Below are positions 7,073-61,569 of a stretch of DNA of 64,000 nucleotides, in pieces. Within the stretch, counting starts at the first letter, position 1; every line of letters starts with the position of its first letter. The stretch covers positions 1-64,000 of the forward strand of contig CALQJO020000004.1 of the NCBI GenBank assembly GCA_943330915.2, read 5' to 3'. Source of the stretch: Rhodoferax sp. OV413 (GTDB taxonomy: Bacteria > Pseudomonadota > Gammaproteobacteria > Pseudomonadales > Pseudohongiellaceae). Both the position numbers and the translations under genes were made by a program. Below the pieces are notes generated by a model. That model was not told the origin of the DNA and ran no database searches. It worked only from the letters and a program-made list of their open reading frames with translations.

Positions 7073-7097
7073 GTTGTGCTCCTTGTTGGTTATTAAC
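7073..7097 (-). promoter_or_regulatory. CA-rich tract next to the acs ribosome binding site (possible Hfq/Crc site)
   Basis: On the minus strand the 25 bases before the acs start read as an A/C-rich run (AATAACCAACAA) that touches the AAGGAG ribosome binding site. In Pseudomonas, Hfq with Crc represses translation by binding A-rich AAYAAYAA-like tracts near ribosome binding sites, and acs is a plausible catabolite-repressed gene. The match to AAYAAYAA is 7 of 8. This is an inference from position and composition, made more attractive by the CrcZ-like RNA encoded 4 kb upstream. Confidence 0.35.
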
Positions 7098-7125
7098 GCT
7101 GGCCCGTCAGGTGGTGCGCGCGGTG

Positions 7126-8840: not shown

Positions 8841-9491
8841 TCACAGCAAGGCCTGACTGGGATTGAAATAATGGATACCTTGTGGTGCCTGCAGGATACG
8901 ATCAACCAGTTGCTGGTAGTGCTCATCGCGGCCAACAAGATCGATTTCGGTGCTGTTGACAATCAAGAGTGGTGACTTGTCGTAATAATGAAAAAACGAC
9001 GTGTAGGCGTCGTTCAGTCTGTTGAGATAGTCCGCTTCGATGGCCTGCTCTGCAGGGATGCCACGCTTGTGTATGCGACTTAGCAAAACGTGGGTGGGCG
9101 CCTGCAGATAAATCACCAGATCAGGAACCGGTGCGTGTACGGTCAGATGCCGGTAAACGTTTTCATACAAACCAAATTCATCTGCGTCGAGATTCTGAAA
9201 GGCAAATAAACGGTCTTTGTCGATCAGGAAGTCTGCCACGCGCACGGGCTCAAACAGATCGTCCTGCTTCAGATCCTGCAACTGCTGCGCGCGTTGGAAC
9301 AGGAAAAACAATTGAGTGGACAGCGCGTACTGTTTGGGATTGCGATAAAACCGTTCGAGAAAGGGATTTTCTTCAGGTTTTTCGAGAATAACGTCGTAAT
9401 TGAACGTTTGTGCCAGGCGCTTGGCCAGGCTGGTCTTACCCACACCAATCGGGCCTTCCACCGCGATATAACGTGGTAATGGTTTACTCAC
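8841..9491 (-). CDS. Deoxynucleoside kinase family protein
   Basis: A protein of 216 aa of the deoxyadenosine/deoxyguanosine kinase (dNK) family, which phosphorylates deoxynucleosides in salvage. It has a P-loop GPIGVGKTS at residues 14-22, an ADFLIDKDRLFA segment near the family's ERS/DRS position, and a lid-like RIHKRGIPAEQ region. It overlaps the end of pcnB by 8 bases and stops 22 bases before panB. In related genomes folK occupies the pcnB-panB interval, often with this kinase; no folK-like frame exists here. Substrate preference cannot be read from sequence. Confidence 0.88.
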   Translation of the reverse strand: MSKPLPRYIAVEGPIGVGKTSLAKRLAQTFNYDVILEKPEENPFLERFYRNPKQYALSTQLFFLFQRAQQLQDLKQDDLFEPVRVADFLIDKDRLFAFQNLDADEFGLYENVYRHLTVHAPVPDLVIYLQAPTHVLLSRIHKRGIPAEQAIEADYLNRLNDAYTSFFHYYDKSPLLIVNSTEIDLVGRDEHYQQLVDRILQAPQGIHYFNPSQALL

Positions 9492-11079
9492 TGGCCTGCT
9501 CCACCCTCGGTGCCGATGATGATCTGGGTTTTCGACGGCGTTTGCGCGGTGCTTTGATGTTGCTCAAGGCTTCGATCATGACTTCCTGCTCGGCGCGATC
9601 TGCCAGTTGGTATTGCGTCCACCAGTCACCGGCATTGTCCAGTTGCTCACCGGACTCTTCGCGCAACAATAGAAAATCGTAGGCTGCTCTGAAGCGTGGG
9701 TGTGCAATCACGCTTTCAACCTGTTTGCGACTTTGCGGTTGCATACGCCATTGTAATTCCCATATCTCGCGCATCACGGCGGTGAAGCGTTTAGGGATGG
9801 CGGTAAATCTCAGCTGCTCAAGAATCGTGTCAGTGGCCGCATCCTGCATGGCCGCTAACGGTGCAAGGCGAGCCTGGAACTGTTCACGCAAGATCGCCTG
9901 CATGGCTGGCCACAGCAAGGCCGCGTACAAAAAAGCCGGTGTCACGGATTTGCCGTCTGCCAAACGTTTGTCGGTGTTTTGCAGTGCCAGTTGTACCAGT
10001 CTGCTGTCGGTGGAGTTTTTATCGCCCAGGCAGCGTAGTGTGGGTTTGAACAGGTAATCGGCCACCTTGTAACGGCGCAGCAGTTCGAAGGTTGCTTCAG
10101 CTTGGCCGCCGGTAAACAGTTTCACTGTTTCATCAAACAGGCGCGCCGGGGAAATTGACTCCAACAGTATGGCCAGCCGCGCGATCGGGGCCTCCGTGTC
10201 TTTGTGAATTCGGAAATCCAGTTTGGCCGCCAAGCGGATGGCACGCAATATGCGAACAGGATCTTCTTTGTATCGGGTTTCCGGGTCACCGATCATACGG
10301 ATCAGCCTGTCTTCGATGTCACTGAGTCCATTCACAAAATCCAGTAACCAGAAACCATTGGCCGTGTAATAAAGCGCGTTGACGGTAAAGTCTCGGCGTA
10401 TGGCATCTTCATTGATGCTGCCATATACATTGTCGCGCAGGATCATACCGGTGCTTGAGTGTGCGGAATCCAGATCCCTGATGTGGCGTCGTGATTCGCC
10501 TTCCTCGACTTCGGTTTCGATTTCGTGATGGGCGCGGAAGGTAGTGACTTCGATGATTTCCTGGCCGAAGCGCACATGGGTGATCTTGAACCGCCGGCCG
10601 ATAATGCGTGAGTTGCGGAACACCTCTCTGACATCTTCTGGCGTGGCATCCGTCGAGATATCAAAGTCCTTGGGGTGGCCGCCCAGTAACAGGTCACGGA
10701 CTCCGCCACCAACCAGAAAAGCCTGAAACCCCGCTTCATTGAGGCGATAAAGCACTTTAAGCGCATTGGGGGAAATATCACGACGTGAAATGTTGTGATC
10801 TTCGCGGGCTACCACCTCAACGTTACTCAGATCCAGTTTGCGCAGCGCGGCGGGCAGTTCGCTGCGTCCATGCGCTGCGCCACGATTGCCTGTTCTGGCG
10901 GTCTGCGCGGAGGGCTGCTCAATACGGGTGTTCTGCGGGTTGCGTGGTGACCGGCGGTTTGGTTCTGCCGGCAATGGCTTCTGGCGTGGTTCTGCTTTTT
11001 TGGCGTCAGGTTTTTCAGCGACACCGCTGCTGCTCTGGCCGGACTTGCCAAAAAGCATTTTTACCAGCTTCTTAATCAT
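9484..11079 (-). CDS. pcnB: Poly(A) polymerase I
   Basis: A protein of 531 aa that adds 3' poly(A) tails to RNA and so promotes decay. The nucleotidyltransferase core contains GGGVRDLLLGGHPKDFDIST (about residues 122-141), where the glycine patch and DFD carboxylates bind metal, then RRDFTVNALYY and the RNA-binding RILRAIRLAAKLDF. The N-terminal 90 residues and the last 30 are Lys/Arg/Pro/Ser-rich and probably disordered. It lies downstream of cbrB and the CrcZ-like locus, as in Pseudomonas. The upstream leader holds an AACAACAA motif (11146-11153). Confidence 0.95.
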   Translation of the reverse strand: MIKKLVKMLFGKSGQSSSGVAEKPDAKKAEPRQKPLPAEPNRRSPRNPQNTRIEQPSAQTARTGNRGAAHGRSELPAALRKLDLSNVEVVAREDHNISRRDISPNALKVLYRLNEAGFQAFLVGGGVRDLLLGGHPKDFDISTDATPEDVREVFRNSRIIGRRFKITHVRFGQEIIEVTTFRAHHEIETEVEEGESRRHIRDLDSAHSSTGMILRDNVYGSINEDAIRRDFTVNALYYTANGFWLLDFVNGLSDIEDRLIRMIGDPETRYKEDPVRILRAIRLAAKLDFRIHKDTEAPIARLAILLESISPARLFDETVKLFTGGQAEATFELLRRYKVADYLFKPTLRCLGDKNSTDSRLVQLALQNTDKRLADGKSVTPAFLYAALLWPAMQAILREQFQARLAPLAAMQDAATDTILEQLRFTAIPKRFTAVMREIWELQWRMQPQSRKQVESVIAHPRFRAAYDFLLLREESGEQLDNAGDWWTQYQLADRAEQEVMIEALSNIKAPRKRRRKPRSSSAPRVEQASE

Positions 11080-11184
11080 CAGGTGTCTAGCTCAAGGTCA
11101 CTTCTGTTGATGGACACAAGCTCAATTGGATACAGACATAACAGCTTGTTGTTGACGCAGACATGGTCAGCGACAGAGGCGGCA

Positions 11185-11213
11185 ATAATACACTGAAGTA
11201 TAGAATGTGTGCA
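11185..11213 (-). promoter_or_regulatory. Candidate sigma-70 promoter for pcnB
   Basis: On the minus strand a -35-like TGCACA (11208-11213) and a -10-like TATTAT (11185-11190) are separated by 17 bases. Each hexamer matches its consensus imperfectly. The site sits just after the G/C hairpin that I take as the end of the CrcZ-like RNA, so pcnB would have its own promoter. The remaining leader (11080-11178) holds an AACAACAA motif and otherwise nothing I recognise. Confidence 0.4.
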
Positions 11214-11225
11214 GGGGAAATGCTC

Positions 11226-11474
11226 TGGGGGGTGACTTGACCCCCCCGCAAGGAAGGTATGTTTTATTGTTATTATTGTTTCTTTTTGTTCTTCTTAAGT
11301 AGGCACTCAAGTCAAGTGCGCCAGTTTATTCATCAGTACCAGCAGTTGTTATGCAATGCGCTTATGTTTATCTGCTAGCCCGATCTGATTATTTTTATTA
11401 TTTTTCTGCACCAATATTGATGCTATTTTTTTTGTTATGCGTCGTTATTTTTATTATTTCTTTTTCTTATTGTA
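11226..11474 (-). ncRNA. crcZ: CrcZ-like regulatory RNA (predicted Hfq/Crc decoy)
   Basis: Predicted non-coding RNA of about 250 nt on the minus strand between cbrB and pcnB, exactly where CrcZ lies in Pseudomonas. A sigma-54 promoter sits 12-26 bases upstream of the predicted start. The RNA carries three separated AAYAAYAA clusters, at 11451-11458, 11395-11402 and 11264-11277 (the last with two overlapping copies), within long A-rich stretches. These are the motifs that Hfq with Crc binds in Pseudomonas. It ends with two hairpins, at 11303-11319 and 11227-11246. No convincing gene is encoded; a 71-codon frame on the other strand is low complexity. CrcZ of Pseudomonas is longer (about 400 nt), so the 3' end here may lie further on. 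Both ends are predictions. Confidence 0.72.
11227..11246 (-). terminator. G/C-rich hairpin at the likely 3' end of the CrcZ-like RNA
   Basis: Perfect 7-bp stem GGGGGGT/ACCCCCC with a 6-base loop, very stable for its length. No U-run follows on the minus strand, so it is not a textbook intrinsic terminator; it could instead protect a 3' end. Its loop (minus strand CAAGTC) is complementary to the loop of the hairpin at 11303-11319. Confidence 0.45.
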
Positions 11475-11484
11475 CGGCGCATAA

Positions 11485-11500
11485 AGCATTTAGCGTGCCA
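11485..11500 (-). promoter_or_regulatory. Sigma-54 promoter of the CrcZ-like RNA
   Basis: The minus strand reads TGGCACG, four bases, then ATGCT. Against the sigma-54 consensus TGGCACG-N4-TTGCW this is perfect at -24, 4 of 5 at -12, and has the exact spacing between the GG and GC dinucleotides. The predicted start is near 11474. rpoN, encoding sigma-54, is at 31.7-33.2 kb, and an adjacent NtrC-family activator (CbrB) has an intact GAFTGA motif. Confidence 0.8.
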
Positions 11501-11574
11501 CAATTACAAAGCATATATATAACAACTAGATATGATTTTATGGGGTGGCCGAAAATCTGTGTTTGAGTAGCAAG

Positions 11575-11621
11575 TGTTACTAAAACACTCTCATCTGATG
11601 AGTAGATGGGTATCGGTAACA
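11575..11621. promoter_or_regulatory. Candidate CbrB upstream activator sites
   Basis: TGTTAC at 11575-11580 and GTAACA at 11616-11621 form an inverted pair 35 bases apart, centred about 100 and 145 bases upstream of the predicted RNA start, a usual distance for sigma-54 enhancer sites. From memory, TGTTAC and GTAACA half-sites are those described for CbrB in Pseudomonas, with shorter spacing. A second palindrome, CTCATC-T-GATGAG, lies between them at 11590-11602. The block lies just downstream of the cbrB stop codon. Confidence 0.5.
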
Positions 11622-11624
11622 GTT

Positions 11625-13016
11625 TCAGGCGTGTTTCTTTTTGCGGGGCAGTCCAAATCGCTGGCGGCGCTCCCACAGGCATTTGCGGCTGATGCCCAGT
11701 TTTTTGGCCAACTGGGTTTCATTCATCTGGTCCTGATGTTCAAGGACAAACTTCTGGAAATAGTCTTCGAGAGACAGCTCTTCTGCAGCGTCAGTCTCAT
11801 CCGCGCTGTGCTGATCGATCATGGATCGCTCGGTCAATGGCCGGATGGTGCGTTTATTACCCGTCAGGTCGATGGCCAGCAATTCTGCCCCGATTTCTTC
11901 GGATTCCGCCAATACCACAGCCCGTTCAATCGCGTTTTCCAGTTCGCGCACGTTCCCCGGCCATGGGTAGGTGGAAATCGCTTGTGTGGCATCATTGGTG
12001 AAATACAACAGCGGTGACTTGAGCCGTTTGCAGGTGCGCTCCAGAATGGCATCCGCGAGCTCAAGGATGTCGTTACCGCGTTCTTTCAGTGGCGGTAAGA
12101 GCAGCGTCATGACGTTAATGCGGTAATACAGATCTTCGCGGAAGTCACCATCAATCACCAGTTGCTTGAGATCGCGGTGGGTAGCAACCACCAGTCTCAC
12201 ATCAACCTTGCGTGATTGCACAGAACCCACTTTTCGTATTTCGCTTTCCTGCAGAACACGCAGCAGCCGAGCCTGAGCATCCAGTGGCAACTCGCCAATT
12301 TCATCCAGAAACAGCGTGCTGCTGTTTGCGGCTTCCACCAGCCCGGTCCGGTTGGCCGTTGCACCCGTGAAGGCGCCTTTTTCATGTCCGAATAGCTCGG
12401 ATTCGATGAGATTTTCAGGAATAGCTGCACAGTTGACCGAAATCATTTCCGAGTCTTTGCGATCGCTTAACTGATGAATGGCACGCGCCACCAGTTCTTT
12501 ACCGGTACCCGATTCACCATTAATCAGCACGGTTGAGCTGGTCTGTGCAACTTTGCGTATGCGACGGAACAATTCCATCATTTGCGGGCAGCTGCCGAGC
12601 ATGCCAGGAACCGGCGGTTCCGGCGGTGGTTCTACAGATTTTGGGGCGACATTTTTGCCCGCATTGTCTTTGATGATGCGCTCGACGGTTTGCAGCATTT
12701 CGTCGTGCTCAAAGGGCTTGGGAATATAGTCCACAGCGCCTAGTTTCATGGAGTCGATGGCGGATCTTAAGCTGGAGTAACTGGTCATGATCAGCACCGG
12801 AGTGCGTGTTGCTTTGATCAGATCGGTGCCAGGGGCGCCCGGCAGTCGCAGATCGCTGATGACGATATTGAAGCTATTCTCGGCCAGGAGTGCGACGGCT
12901 TCCTTCACGGACCCGGCTTCACTGACAATATAGCCGTGGCGTTCAAGCAAGCGGCGCAATGCAGTGCGGATGACTGGTTCATCCTCGACAACCAGAACTT
13001 TGTAATGTGCAGTCAT
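11625..13016 (-). CDS. cbrB: Sigma-54-dependent response regulator CbrB
   Basis: An NtrC-family activator of 463 aa. The receiver domain covers about residues 5-120 with the phospho-acceptor Asp55 ([10 protein letters not shown]). The AAA+ domain covers about 140-375 with Walker A GESGTGKE at 167-174 and the sigma-54 contact loop GAFTGA at 214-219, so it should be active with RpoN. A Fis-type helix-turn-helix closes the protein ([21 protein letters not shown]). Placement directly after the SLC5-type kinase gene and before pcnB identifies it as CbrB, the regulator of carbon/nitrogen balance that drives crcZ in Pseudomonas. The stop is about 150 bases upstream of the predicted RNA start. Confidence 0.93.
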
Positions 13017-13065: not shown

Positions 13066-15993
13066 TCAGCTTTTGTTTAGTGTCTCATCATAACAGGGAA
13101 AACTCAGTACTACTTTGGCGCCCGGGTTATGCCGCTTGGCAGTGGCATTCATTATATCAATATGTCCGCCGAGGTTTTCAACCAGGCTGTAGACCAGTGC
13201 CAGTCCAAGACCGGTACCTTCGCCGGGTTCCTTGGTGGTAAAAAACGGTTCGAACACCCGGTCACGAATGGCCTCCGGGATACCGCTGCCTTCATCGGAA
13301 ACACTGATCTGTATCGATGCGGCGATACGTTCACAGTCAATACGAATGGTGCTTTCCACAGGGCTGGCGTCGCGCGCATTGTTGATCAGATTCACCAGCA
13401 CCTGCAGTAGCTGCTGTGAGTCGCCGAGTATGCGGGCATTTGGCTCACAGTGCACATCAAAGTGCATGTGTTTGCCCTTCTTGTTAAGAGAGATCAGTGC
13501 AATTGCTTCATCAATACACGTTGCGACCAGCACAACTTCATGCCGCTGGTCAGCTTTGTTGTGGCTGCCGCTGTGTGCAAAATTGACCAGTGACTGCACT
13601 ATGCGCGAGGTGCGGTCGGTCTGTTCAATGATCTGTTTTGCCATGCTGCGCAACTCGTCGTTGGAAGTTTCATCTCTGATATTCTGGGCCAGGCAGGCAA
13701 TGCCGGTGATGGGATTACCAATCTCGTGAGCTACGCCGGCCGCAAGCCGGCCAATGGATGCCAGGCGCTCGCTGTGAGCCAGCTCTTCTTCCAGCAACTC
13801 GGTGTCTGTCAGATCTTCCAAAAGGACAATGATGCCATCCTGCTCAATACGCCGGCTGGTGGATTTTTCAATCACTGCTTTGTGCAGACTGATGTAACGT
13901 TTACCGCCGTTCACGTTGATTGTCAGTTTGTGCTGATGTGCCGTTTCACCGTGTAGAAACTGGTTCAAGAGTTTGTACCAGGGGTTGCCGATTTCACTCA
14001 GATGCATACCAACAGCTTCCTCGGTCGTGATGCCCGTCAGCGTCTCCATGGCATGATTCCACATAATGATCTGGTCGTCCGGGCCCAGAGAGCAGACACC
14101 CAGCGGAAGATCCATCAATATCTGCCGATGATAACGCCGCAGGTTATCCAGATCAGCGGCCATGCCTGACAAATTGCTTCGGTACGCTTCGATACGGCTT
14201 TCGATAGCCGTCACGTCTGCTGAGACGCTTTCCTTGGTGGAGGTAAATGGCAGAAATCTGTCAATCAAATCATGTGCGATTGCTGGCCCCAGCAATCCGG
14301 ACAGATTTGCTTCCAGGCGACTGCGCAGCTGGCGCAGGGCCTGTGGCCGGCTGTCCTGTTTATCCATATTGAGATCACGAAGTGCCTGCATGACCTCTCG
14401 TGTAGCAGTGCGCTCCCCCAACGGTTTTGTCAGCTGGGCAATAAACTCCTGCGGTGAACTAGCTGTGAGTCCTGCACGTCGCTGGCGTCGGAGGTTGTCA
14501 ACCGAGCAGATATCGGCAGATATCCGTTCCTCAGTTGAGCTGCGCGTCAACAGGGAAACCAGCATAAACAGCGCAATATTGCAGATCAGCGACAGCACAA
14601 CAATTTCGCGGGTATTCATGTTACCCAAGGTAAAGAAATTGGTGCCTGATGCCACGGGCAGTACCAGAAAGACAAACCAGACGGCCGTTCCTGCGGCGAG
14701 GCCGGCCATGAATCCTTTCTTGTTACCTTTGGGCCAGTAAAGCAACGCAACAATTGCCGGCAGAAATTGCAGGCTGCCAATCAGACCAATATTACTGACT
14801 GCCCGGATACTCTGGTCGTCTGATGGCACGTAATAAAAGAGGAATCCGCCCCAGATCAATGCTGCGATCAATGCCCGGCGCTTCCACAACAACCAGCGAT
14901 AGATATCCTGGCGCGCACTGGGTTGCCACACCGGCAGAATCAGGTGGTTCAGGCACATCGTGGACAGCGCCAGTGTTATCACAATAATCAGGCCACTGGC
15001 TGCAGACATGCCGCCGATAAAACCAATCAGGGTAAACAGCTCAGAATCATAGTATGCACCCAGAGTGACCGGATAATACTCCATGGGTGACAGCGCACCC
15101 GAGCGCAAACCTGCCCACAGGATAGGTAACACCGGCAGGCTTAACAGCAGAAAATACAGTGGTAGGCCCCAGCTGGCGACGCTGAGCGCGCGGGGGTGGT
15201 TGTTTTCATGGAAGGTCATATAAAACATCTGCGGGGTCGCGACGGCGGCGCTGAAAAAAACCAGTACCATGATCTGGAATGTCCCGGGAGGCGCAGGCTC
15301 TTTGATTCTGCGCAGCAGTTCCGGTTGTTCTCTGACCCATTGCTCCATGAGGTCAAAACTGCCGAAGCCCTTGTAGATAGCAAAAAAGCCCACAGCCAGC
15401 AGCGCCACCAATTTGACCAGGGACTCAAAAGCGATGGTCATGACCAGTCCTTCATGACGTTCTCTGCCGGAGCCTTTACCGGTTCCGAAAAAGATTGAAA
15501 ATAGCGTAATCAACAGGCAAAACGTGATCGCCAGCGTTGTCTCTGAAGCGTCGGGTGACAGCAGGCTGACGGTGGTGGCAACCGCTTGAATCTGCAAGGA
15601 CAACAGCGGCATCACCACCAGTAACATGACCAAGGTGGTCAGGGTGCCAGCCCATGGACTGCGATACCTGAAGGATAACAAGTCAGCCAAGGAGCTGAGT
15701 TGGTAAGTTTTGGTGAGATTCAGAATAGGCCGCAGTAACAACGGGGATAACAAAAACGCCATGGATATGCCAATAAAGGGCGCCAGATATCCATAACCAT
15801 CACGGAATGCGTTGCCGGTTGCCGCGTAATACGACCACACGCTGGCAAACACACCCAGAGACAGCACGTAAACCACAGGATGTCTGACAACGCGTTCGGG
15901 TATCCAGCCACGCTCGGTAATGTAGGCAATCCCGAACAGAATAATCAGGTAACCCACACCCAGTGCGAATAATGTACTTAACTCAAAGGTCAT
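13066..15993 (-). CDS. cbrA: Transporter-fused sensor histidine kinase CbrA
   Basis: A protein of 975 aa with the CbrA architecture. An N-terminal SLC5/SSS solute:sodium symporter domain of about 13 helices (residues 1-500) is followed by a linker, then a PAS domain (around 630-720) containing [21 protein letters not shown] HisKA domain carries phospho-acceptor His near residue 756 in [11 protein letters not shown], and the HATPase_c domain has N-box [17 protein letters not shown] and [13 protein letters not shown]. In Pseudomonas, CbrA transports and/or senses histidine and other substrates and phosphorylates CbrB. The start at 15993 overlaps the end of a small upstream frame by 11 bases, which suggests translational coupling. 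The open frame extends to 16041, but the extension does not resemble the family. Confidence 0.94.
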
Positions 15994-16159
15994 CGACGTT
16001 TTGTTCCCGGAATGACCACGCGGCCAGGGCGATGACAACAAAACAAATCAGCAGAGGGCGATACCAGGCCCCATGGGTCTGCATTGACCATTCCACGCTG
16101 AGCAGGAACAGCAGGTAGCTGAAAACCAGAAAAATCAGGGTGGATGGCGGAATATACAT
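15983..16159 (-). CDS. cbrX: CbrX-like small membrane protein
   Basis: A 58-codon frame found by translating the interval between gluQ and cbrA. It starts MYIPPSTLIFLVFSYLL, has two hydrophobic segments (about residues 7-21 and 33-48) separated by a short polar loop with WSMQTHGAWYR, and ends in an acidic tail. Its stop codon overlaps the cbrA start by 11 bases. The start is 11 bases after the gluQ stop; I see no strong ribosome site. A small frame called cbrX is described upstream of, and overlapping, cbrA in Pseudomonas, and the match in place, size and hydrophobicity is good. Identity rests on context; function is unknown. Confidence 0.68.
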   Translation of the reverse strand: MYIPPSTLIFLVFSYLLFLLSVEWSMQTHGAWYRPLLICFVVIALAAWSFREQNVDDL

Positions 16160-31658: not shown

Positions 31659-33218
31659 TCAGACCAGTCGTTTCCGTTCGTTGGATGGCGGGATATTCAG
31701 CGATTCGCGATATTTTGCTATGGTACGGCGCGCAACGTTGATCCCTTGTTCATCCAGTAACTCAGCAATACGGCTGTCGCTGAGAGGTTTTTTGGTGTTT
31801 TCTGCAGTCACCAGCTTTTTGATTAACGCCCTGATCGCCGTTGATGAGCATTCACCACCGGCACTGGTACTGACATGGCTTGAGAAAAAATACTTCAGTT
31901 CAAAGATTCCACGCGGTGTGTGCATGTACTTTTGTGTTGTCACCCGCGAAATCGTTGATTCATGCATTTCAACGGCTTCGGCAATATCATGCAGCACCAG
32001 GGGTTTCATGGCCTCTTCGCCGTACTCCAGAAAACCTTGCTGATGCTCAACAATGCGACTTGCTACTTTCAGCAAAGTTTCATTGCGGCTTTGAAGGCTC
32101 TTCAGAAACCAGCGCGCTTCCTGCAGATTATCCCTGAGATAGTTATTGTCAGTGCTGTTCTCGGAGCGTTTTACAAGTGCAGCATAATCTGGGTTTATGC
32201 GCAGCCGCGGCGCAATGTCGGGATTCAATTCTACCCGCCAGCGCCCGTTACGCTGATCTTTCATGACAAAAACATCCGGTACGATGTAGGTCGTGGACGT
32301 CGGCGCGATATCAGCGCCGGGCCTCGGGTTGAGTTTTTCGATGATGCTGATAGCGTCACGCAGGTCGTGCTCTTTGATACGCGCCAGGCGGATAATCTGC
32401 GCGTAGTCACGATTACCCAGCAGGTTAAGATAGTCCTTTACCAGTATGCGGGCATTTTTGACGGCGCTGGTGCACAACTCTGGCGAAATTTGATTCAGTT
32501 GAATCATCAGGCACTCGGACAGATCCCGATAAGCGACTCCAACCGGATCAAATTGCTGGATCCTGTGAAGTACCGCAACCACTTCATCTTCATCAATGTC
32601 CAGATGTTCCTGAAGGCCTTCTACAATGGATTCCAGACTTGCAGAAAGTCTGCCATCAGAATCCACGGCATCTATAATCGCCATCGCAATCAGGCGATCG
32701 GTATCGGACATGTTGGTCAGGTTCAACTGCCAGTTGAGGTGATCCTGAAGTGTTTCGGACGCCGAGTCACGCGATTCAAAATCGCTGTCTGAATCTTGTG
32801 ACGGGCTGCCTGTAGAGTAAGAATTCTGGTAAACGTCATCCCAGTTGGTGTCCACAGGTAGCTGCTCAGGGATGCTTTCGTCCCAGCTTGCACTGTCTTC
32901 TGAGTTTTCATAGGAATTATCAGTAGAAGGCAGTTCCCGATAGAGTTCTTGAGCGTGCTCGTAGTCGGGCTGATCGGTTTCTTGGGTAGTGCTGACGGGT
33001 TTCTCAAAAAACTCACCGCCTTCACTGTCGAAATCAGCATCCTCACTGCTGCCACTTTCAAAACTTTCGTCCACTTCCAGCATCGGATTGGACTCAAGTG
33101 CCTGGTGGATCTCTTGTTGCAGATCCAGTGTAGACAGCTGCAGTAGCCGGATTGCCTGCTGCAGCTGTGGCGTCATGGTCAGTTGCTGACCCAGCTTTAG
33201 CTGTAGCGAGATTTTCAT
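31659..33218 (-). CDS. rpoN: RNA polymerase sigma-54 factor
   Basis: A protein of 519 aa with all three sigma-54 regions: Gln/Leu-rich region I ([20 protein letters not shown]), an acidic region II (about residues 50-160, rich in Asp/Glu/Ser), the core-binding and DNA-binding region III, and the RpoN box [12 protein letters not shown] near the C-terminus. It directs transcription from -24/-12 promoters with activators such as CbrB. Order lptC-lptA-lptB-rpoN-ptsN-rapZ-ptsO follows Pseudomonas except for missing hpf. Confidence 0.97.
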
Positions 33219-60948: not shown

Positions 60949-60955
60949 GCGGAAT

Positions 60956-61340
<385 letters not shown>

Positions 61341-61569
61341 ACTCATTTTGTCTATTTTCCCTCCTAAAAAATCAAATATTTAACAAAGCACTTTAACTTG
61401 CTTTTGCAGATCTTTGATTCTTTTTTCATTGTCTTTTTTGTGCCTTTCGCGGGCGTCAAAAAAACCATTTTTTCCTGATATTTCAGAAGCTTTCCTTCTA
61501 CTCAAAAACTGCAAATAACGCTTGCATCGAGCTTTTGCCATGCCTATAGTGTCGAAATGTGGTGATAAG

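Follow-up and report, generated by a model that had tools for sequence, protein, structure and literature searches.

A CrcZ-like RNA locus between cbrB and pcnB in the Pseudohongiellaceae and a candidate Hfq decoy circuit without Crc

Introduction

The gap between cbrB and pcnB in a bacterial genome from outside the Pseudomonadaceae raises the question of whether an RNA of the CrcZ type is encoded there and, if so, which protein it would sequester. Repression in Pseudomonas aeruginosa is exerted chiefly by Hfq, with Crc ancillary, and CrcZ titrates Hfq by attaching to its distal face (PMC4063720). Crc stabilises the Hfq-RNA complexes (PMC5815094), and suppressors of a crcZ deletion in P. aeruginosa fell mostly in crc, with 25 intragenic crc mutations and one in hfq. 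A 2022 review states that the cbrA-cbrB-crcZ arrangement is unique to the Pseudomonadaceae (PMC8871633).

We analysed a window of 64 kb, the whole stretch of DNA under study, which is contig C4 of a draft genome of 2.89 Mb and 96.7% completeness. The nearest named relatives of this genome are Pseudohongiella and kindred MAGs, and Pseudohongiella belongs to the Pseudohongiellaceae, in the Pseudomonadales and outside the Pseudomonadaceae (NCBI taxonomy). The original prediction, made from the window alone, proposed a divergent and shorter CrcZ under the control of CbrB and sigma-54 that titrates Hfq/Crc.

Results

Genes around the gap

On the minus strand the order is cbrA, cbrB, the gap and pcnB. 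The cbrA gene (13066..16041), which is named by synteny with cbrB and whose start codon is uncertain, encodes a sensor kinase in which PAS, HisKA and HATPase domains are recognised; its long N-terminal part gave no transporter match in Pfam at E<=1e-5. The cbrB gene (11625..13016) encodes a response regulator and sigma-54 activator with a GAFTGA loop at residue 214, about 59-67% identical to CbrB of other families, including the Pseudomonadaceae, among the matches listed. From the cbrB stop to the pcnB start the gap measures 545 nt (11080-11624), and pcnB (9484..11079), a poly(A) polymerase gene recognised by TIGR01942 above cut-off at 501 bits, is the downstream synteny marker. Sigma-54 is encoded by rpoN (31659..33218, minus strand), with the Pfam domains Sigma54_AID, CBD and DBD each above cut-off.

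Past pcnB follow genes that we take, from their translations, to be panB/panC-like and then acs-like. An A-rich stretch (AATAACCAACAAGGAG, 7073-7107) stands immediately upstream of the acs-like start codon and is a possible Hfq-repressed target. The sole above-cut-off Rfam match in the window is RNase P RNA class A (60955-61344, plus strand, 334 bits). Two MAG records (L054 and L064) are titled Klebsiella pneumoniae; their cbrB loci are of the Pseudohongiellaceae type (81% and 70% identity), and the titles look wrong.

Promoter and activator sites

The gap carries on its minus strand the sigma-54 element that the original prediction had placed there, a -24/-12 promoter (TGGCACGCTAAATGCT, 11485..11500) which, read from 11500 to 11485, has the exact GG-N10-GC spacing and is conserved in relatives. 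The pattern TGGCAC-N6-TGC[AT] has a single match on the two strands of the window taken together, and this match is TGGCACGCTAAATGCT. The half-sites said to lie upstream of the start are also in place: CbrB subsite F (TGTTAC, 11616..11621, minus strand) lies 147 nt and subsite R (GTAACA, 11575..11580, minus strand) 106 nt from the predicted start at 11474. The published consensus, TGTTAC-N12-14-GTAACA-N15-19-GTAACA, implies a distance of 39-45 nt between F1 and R2 (PMC8871633, section 8). The two sites found here are 41 nt apart, start to start, and thus correspond to F1 and R2 at the published spacing, with the middle R1 copy not recognisable in the gap. Two good subsites of the three can suffice (PMC8871633, section 8; PMC6296734). 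The promoter and the rpoN gene together point, at the level of sequence, to the sigma-54 dependence expected of a CrcZ.

The predicted RNA

With its 5′ end set by the promoter and its 3′ end by the last hairpin, the predicted CrcZ-like RNA is about 258 nt long (11217..11474, minus strand, as are all its parts). It opens with A-rich cluster 1 (11422..11471), whose A-R-N runs of 5, 4 and 5 triplets are predicted Hfq distal-face sites. Hairpin 1 (11408..11423; helix 1 of the alignment, 97.5% of cells paired) stands between this cluster and cluster 2 (11388..11405), a single run of 6 A-R-N triplets (alignment A2). Hairpin 2 (11332..11384) and hairpin 3 (11300..11323), the latter a single-sequence prediction absent from the alignment consensus, precede cluster 3 (11263..11296), which has runs of 6 and 5 triplets. 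The last element is a terminator-like 3′ hairpin with a weak T run (11221..11250, TGC-G7 ... C6-AGA-GCA), nearly invariant in 20 aligned relatives; a strong T run is missing at this point in the genus, and in relatives L040, L109 and L112 the RNA ends are hairpins with T runs. The three AAYAAYAA clusters first described are therefore present, and are better resolved as six A-R-N runs (11471-11457, 11455-11444, 11436-11422, 11405-11388, 11296-11279 and 11277-11263).

Several lines of evidence set this stretch apart from its surroundings. The richest 260-nt stretch of either strand, with 6 AAYAAYAA, is the CrcZ-like locus, and the maximum beyond 600 nt away is 1. The 258-nt RNA combines 6 AAYAAYAA with 6 runs of at least 4 A-R-N triplets, and none of 2000 dinucleotide shuffles, which average 1.04 such runs, reaches either number. 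As expected of a CrcZ, multiple motifs are unpaired, 87 of the 93 nt in the A-R-N runs being single-stranded in the predicted fold, and the fold itself (z -3.23) is equalled in 0 of 200 shuffles. The RNAalifold structure of the 20 aligned relatives has standard pairs in 95.3% of pair cells, a figure favoured by the derivation of the structure from the same alignment that scores it. Cells changed on both sides number 35 in this alignment versus 14.1 in shuffles; pairs with such changes, at 6 versus 5.3, are not unusual. Within hairpin 2, double-sided changes occur in one or more sequences at 5 of the 11 pairs, and sliding the pair partners along the alignment makes the pairing measures fall sharply.

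The Rfam model of CrcZ (RF01675) matches at 11457-11191 with 36.5 bits and E of 4.2e-8 to 4.8e-8, first in the genome and followed by a match of 18.4 bits, and falls short of the gathering cut-off of 95 bits. The warning that homology searches might miss this RNA thus holds for the cut-off and fails for the search itself. Other weak Rfam matches in the gap (Ysr201, fstAT and others) were dismissed as far below their cut-offs. A family model, R1, built from 20 family gap RNAs, scores 217 bits here, the sequence being itself within the model. Neither RF01675 nor R1, whose stricter filters lose weak matches, found a second crcZ copy in the source genome. Taken on its own, the proposition that the gap carries a CrcZ-like RNA gene is highly probable. 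The divergent, shorter CrcZ under CbrB and sigma-54 that had been proposed is well supported by synteny, promoter and activator sites, architecture and a sub-threshold Rfam match that is the best in the genome.

Conservation in the Pseudohongiellaceae

CbrB is found at E<=1e-100 in 97 of 99 genomes of the family, and the gap after cbrB was examined in 70 of these 97. We scored a gap as crcZ-type when it held a sigma-54 element and at least 4 AANAANAA. By this measure 54 of the 70 gaps are crcZ-type, including 14/14 in the genus of the source genome, and 45 of the 54 have the F-R pair at 35-46 nt. The comparison of relatives' gaps, which had been suggested as a check, recovers the -24/-12 element and A-rich blocks in these 54 gaps. 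Loss of the promoter and clusters in close relatives, which would have counted against the prediction, is not seen in the genus, and in part of a sister genus, g4, the RNA is lost.

Sixteen of the 70 gaps were not scored as crcZ: nine are shorter than 200 nt, among them that of G048, which is truncated at the edge of its contig. The other seven are unclear, and in L111 and L116, which belong to these seven, A-rich motifs occur but no strict match to the promoter. All sixteen keep cbrB, so CbrAB must have other roles too. In seven loci (L102, L103, L106, L107, L108, L110 and L118) the gap is a mere 13-87 nt, with no crcZ parts and with cbrB and pcnB kept; these collapsed gaps read as cases of CbrAB retained after loss of the RNA. 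Among three further family gaps, those of G088 and G086 have promoter and A-rich parts, and that of G064 has A-rich parts and F-R sites, the strict promoter match being absent.

Model R1 matches 65 of the 99 family genomes, at one place each except in G077 (a second, partial match), with a single match in every one of the 15 genomes in the source genome's genus. It misses the genera g2, g3 and g8; yet in g3 and g8 together, 7 of 10 gaps examined contain the promoter and A-rich blocks despite the lack of an R1 match. The middle of the gap RNA is built differently in L096, L098, L109 and L112, from these two genera.

Conservation across the Pseudomonadales

Across the order, RF01675 matches 72 of 390 genomes at E<=0.001 (19 above cut-off), and CbrB is found at E<=1e-130 in 284 of 390. 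After L205 and L213, which have no cbrB end, had been dropped, 59 gaps remained. Promoter and A-rich blocks occur together in 50 of the 59, in 23 families, a share that overstates that of the order, as the sample was chosen by good CbrB matches and the RF01675 search itself supplied 11 of the gaps. Seven gaps have one part (f7, f5, three of f9, one of f39, and Halomonas), and two have neither (one f29 genome and Parendozoicomonas). In the 50 two-part gaps AANAANAA occurs at least 6 times on the sense side versus 0-2 times on the other. Of the 30 CrcZ-matching loci listed from the order-wide scan, 28 sit between cbrB and pcnB, the exceptions being L151, an additional copy at another site of a Pseudomonadaceae genome, and L167, which has no cbrB end. 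Five loci (L214, L218, L220, L229 and L197, from f30, f39, f47 and f45) have two complete sigma-54 and A-rich units per gap, 391-495 nt apart, and these appear to be tandem crcZ-like genes.

These data disagree with the restriction of cbrA-cbrB-crcZ to the Pseudomonadaceae in PMC8871633, the arrangement being the usual state in the order sample (50/59). Passages of a 2026 preprint on CbrA refer to the Pseudomonadaceae only (PMC13022988), and PMC5955585 names CrcZ in its introduction alone. Among the matches listed in our literature searches, no title or opening of an abstract reports CrcZ outside the Pseudomonadaceae.

Hfq is encoded and no true Crc is found

The source genome encodes one Hfq (L006), which scores 131 bits to P. 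aeruginosa Hfq. Of the distal-face residues named in PMC6422490, Y25, L26, G29, I30, K31, L32, Q33, Q52 and T61 are unchanged, and the A-R-N-binding distal face is thus retained. Crc has lost key catalytic residues (PMC6422490). PF03372 identifies four proteins in the genome, two of them ExoIII-like (L008 and L007). L007 is of the XthA type by tree, and the Crc-clade profile matches neither L009 nor L010 at E<=1e-10. The best PDB match of L008 is the Neisseria AP endonuclease 2jc5 (303 bits), with P. aeruginosa Crc (4jg3) at 232 bits. L008 retains E, D, N, D and H at the five ExoIII catalytic positions checked, so the catalytic loss typical of Crc is not seen, and the basic patch of Crc is also missing: S, G and R stand at K139, R140 and R141 (SGRS through the E142 position), which are invariant in 19 Crc rows of alignment A1.

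Phylogeny supports the same assignment. In trees of 36, 55 and 80 proteins the Crc clade groups Pseudomonas Crc with proteins of 27 other families, in each of which one or more of the five catalytic positions checked have lost their residue. In the 80-row tree, from which the near-duplicates L122, L275, L282, L252 and L253 were left out, this clade has 34 rows and support of 100/99, with L008 and its family relatives outside; in a 98-row tree, 19 Crc rows remain a closed clade. Profile score was rejected as a means of separating Crc from its catalytic relatives, because the leave-one-out scores of Crc (331-407 bits) overlap those of the relatives (up to 365 bits), and trees and residues were used instead. 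The Crc-clade profile matches 93 of 99 family genomes, with 67 matches above 250 bits and the rest below 195 bits (XthA class); all five catalytic residues are kept in 67/67 of the former (44 + 23), and G007, G040, G052, G090, G092 and G096 give no match to the profile at all. No true Crc was found in the source genome or the 98 relatives searched, which are drafts (the source 96.7% complete). The genome search for crc and hfq put forward with the original prediction therefore returned hfq and no true crc. With no Crc-clade member found in the genome or the relatives searched, ‘titrates Hfq/Crc’ is narrowed to ‘titrates Hfq’, and within the limits of draft genomes the Crc part of the prediction stands refuted.

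The KRRE patch (K139-R140-R141-E142) is present in 11 of the 67 catalytic family proteins, and each of the 11 comes from a genome that has either a crcZ-like gap or a match to R1. Most crcZ-bearing genomes are without it, which argues against a simple dependence of patch on crcZ. In this comparison the ‘lost’ class comprises 10 genomes (11 proteins): 7 with a collapsed gap seen, G067 with no element seen in 900 nt lacking pcnB, and G069 and G074 assigned by absence of an R1 match. The catalytically intact patch-bearing proteins are L137, L273, L274, L275, L276, L278, L280, L295, L381, L386 and L388, and the patch occurs also in the catalytic proteins L243, L244, L329 and L331. Such nucleases are a possible intermediate in the origin of Crc, judging from these residues. 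In genus g5, the L008-type nuclease is present in 8 of 14 genomes and the XthA type only in the other 6, as if the two replaced each other.

Crc in other families

Two further families, f22 and f29, show a similar combination. In f22, 2/2 genomes tested have the catalytic protein only, with KRRD, and the one gap examined (L211, in G159) is CrcZ-like. Of five f29 genomes, G126 has a catalytic protein and G245 a remote ExoIII, and G305, G163 and G343 gave no match; all three of the latter have CrcZ-like gaps, and G245 has none. Four genomes of these families thus have a CrcZ-like gap without Crc. The two families pair in the CbrAB tree (99.1/100) and may share one Crc loss. True Crc is also absent from one genome each of f26, f33, f36, f17, f18, f34 and f44.

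The midpoint-rooted CbrAB tree places the Pseudohongiellaceae at the base. In a CbrB tree with distant outgroups, from which the outgroup L077 was left out as too short, they are nested beside Crc-bearing families with support of 99.8/100. Loss of Crc rather than its late arrival is favoured by this placement, although the outgroups are remote.

Alternative explanations

The RNA could work as in Pseudomonas, with the catalytically intact L008 standing in for Crc as co-repressor, since L008 is the nearest Crc relative in the genome (232 bits to 4jg3) and Crc's KRRE patch occurs in 11/67 catalytic family proteins, none of them from a genome that lacks both a crcZ-like gap and a match to R1. However, K139 and R140 are absent in L008 and in the proteins of 13 other genus members examined, its best PDB match is the endonuclease 2jc5 (303 bits), and it falls outside the 34-row Crc clade (100/99). 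A working Crc might be lost together with crcZ, and this is not seen: the L008-type protein persists in genomes with a collapsed gap and is missing from g3, g8 and 6 of the 14 genomes of g5, and most of the genomes without it have crcZ. We consider this reading very unlikely, and equally so another in which the RNA is made and acts otherwise, such as by base pairing with mRNAs or through other RNA-binding proteins. The conservation of linker parts in the 20-relative alignment and the reported interaction of Pseudomonas CrcZ with RsmA and RsmN (PMC8871633) would fit the latter, but apart from the A-rich runs, the first two hairpins and the 3′ hairpin, the relatives vary much, by eye, unlike a seed region.

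Since the A-rich stretch immediately precedes pcnB, in the same orientation, and its 3′ hairpin has a weak T run, it could instead be a sigma-54-made 5′ leader that tunes poly(A) polymerase. A hairpin followed by a T run at the same point in L040, L109 and L112, the retention of pcnB in genomes with collapsed gaps and the two complete promoter and A-rich units ahead of pcnB in five loci make this very unlikely. So may a conserved GTGTATTAT-like motif near pcnB, by its -10 form a candidate promoter of the gene's own. That low-complexity A-rich DNA met an accidental sigma-54-like site can hardly be credited. The CrcZ model does give matches at E<=10 in 9 of 14 control genomes, none above cut-off, but at E<=0.001 in 0/14. 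The result of 0/2000 shuffles, the uniqueness of the locus in the window and the AANAANAA strand bias in 50 order gaps (at least 6 sense versus 0-2) all speak against chance, which conservation already contradicts, the arrangement being repeated in 54/70 family gaps and 50/59 order gaps.

Discussion

The reading that we prefer, and hold to be probable, is that CbrB and sigma-54 drive from the gap a decoy of the CrcZ type, which titrates Hfq in the absence of Crc. A shortage of good carbon would lead CbrA to activate CbrB, which at TGTTAC/GTAACA and together with RpoN would fire the -24/-12 promoter and yield an RNA some 258 nt long. The six A-R-N runs of this RNA, single-stranded and spaced by hairpins, would then engage Hfq hexamers at the distal face and draw Hfq off the A-rich ribosome-binding sites of catabolic mRNAs, allowing their translation. 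With no true Crc among the encoded proteins, Hfq would be the decoy's only target. What the sequences show is the parts and their conservation, the genes hfq, rpoN and cbrAB, and draft genomes in which searches turn up no Crc-clade gene; we infer that the RNA is transcribed under the control of CbrB and binds Hfq, and also which mRNAs are its targets and what the signal is. Each step that an Hfq decoy needs is encoded in the genome and the Crc step is not, and we therefore commit ourselves to an Hfq decoy without Crc. The predominance of crc among the P. aeruginosa suppressors indicates that Crc matters much in that organism, and a circuit built on Hfq by itself may be weak or may work differently.

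The predicted RNA resembles Pseudomonas CrcZ (RF01675) in its cbrB-pcnB position on the same strand, its sigma-54 promoter and two recognisable CbrB subsites of three, its A-rich blocks between stems and its G-rich 3′ hairpin, and its six A-R-N runs compare with six A-rich stretches in P. aeruginosa CrcZ (PMC4063720). It differs in length, at about 258 nt versus 407 nt (PMC4063720), and in that no Crc was found in the genome; the relative of P. aeruginosa Crc (4jg3, 6o1k) that is encoded there, L008, keeps the catalytic positions and is without K139/R140. CrcY and CrcX of Pseudomonas and Azotobacter share the decoy principle and the CbrB control (PMC8871633), and no second copy was found here. 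By position, promoter and architecture the locus is a putative counterpart of crcZ, and the curated cut-off excludes it from RF01675; we file it as a CrcZ-like variant predicted to work like CrcZ.

The wider proposition, that the Pseudohongiellaceae and, separately, f22 and f29 exert catabolite control by Hfq and a CrcZ decoy alone, the decoy having outlived Crc, is in our judgement evenly balanced. Order-wide, crcZ-like loci vary in length, copy number and partner. The lineages that bear CrcZ and are without Crc offer natural knock-outs in which to test whether Hfq is the essential target of the RNA and what Crc contributes. Some intact enzymes already have the RNA-contact patch, which suggests that Crc arose in steps from a nuclease that was catalytic. 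If the proposition is true, CrcZ would be at root an Hfq decoy, to which Crc was added, or from which it was dropped, as a co-repressor by lineage, and Crc may have been recruited from an AP endonuclease that bore the KRRE patch while still catalytic.
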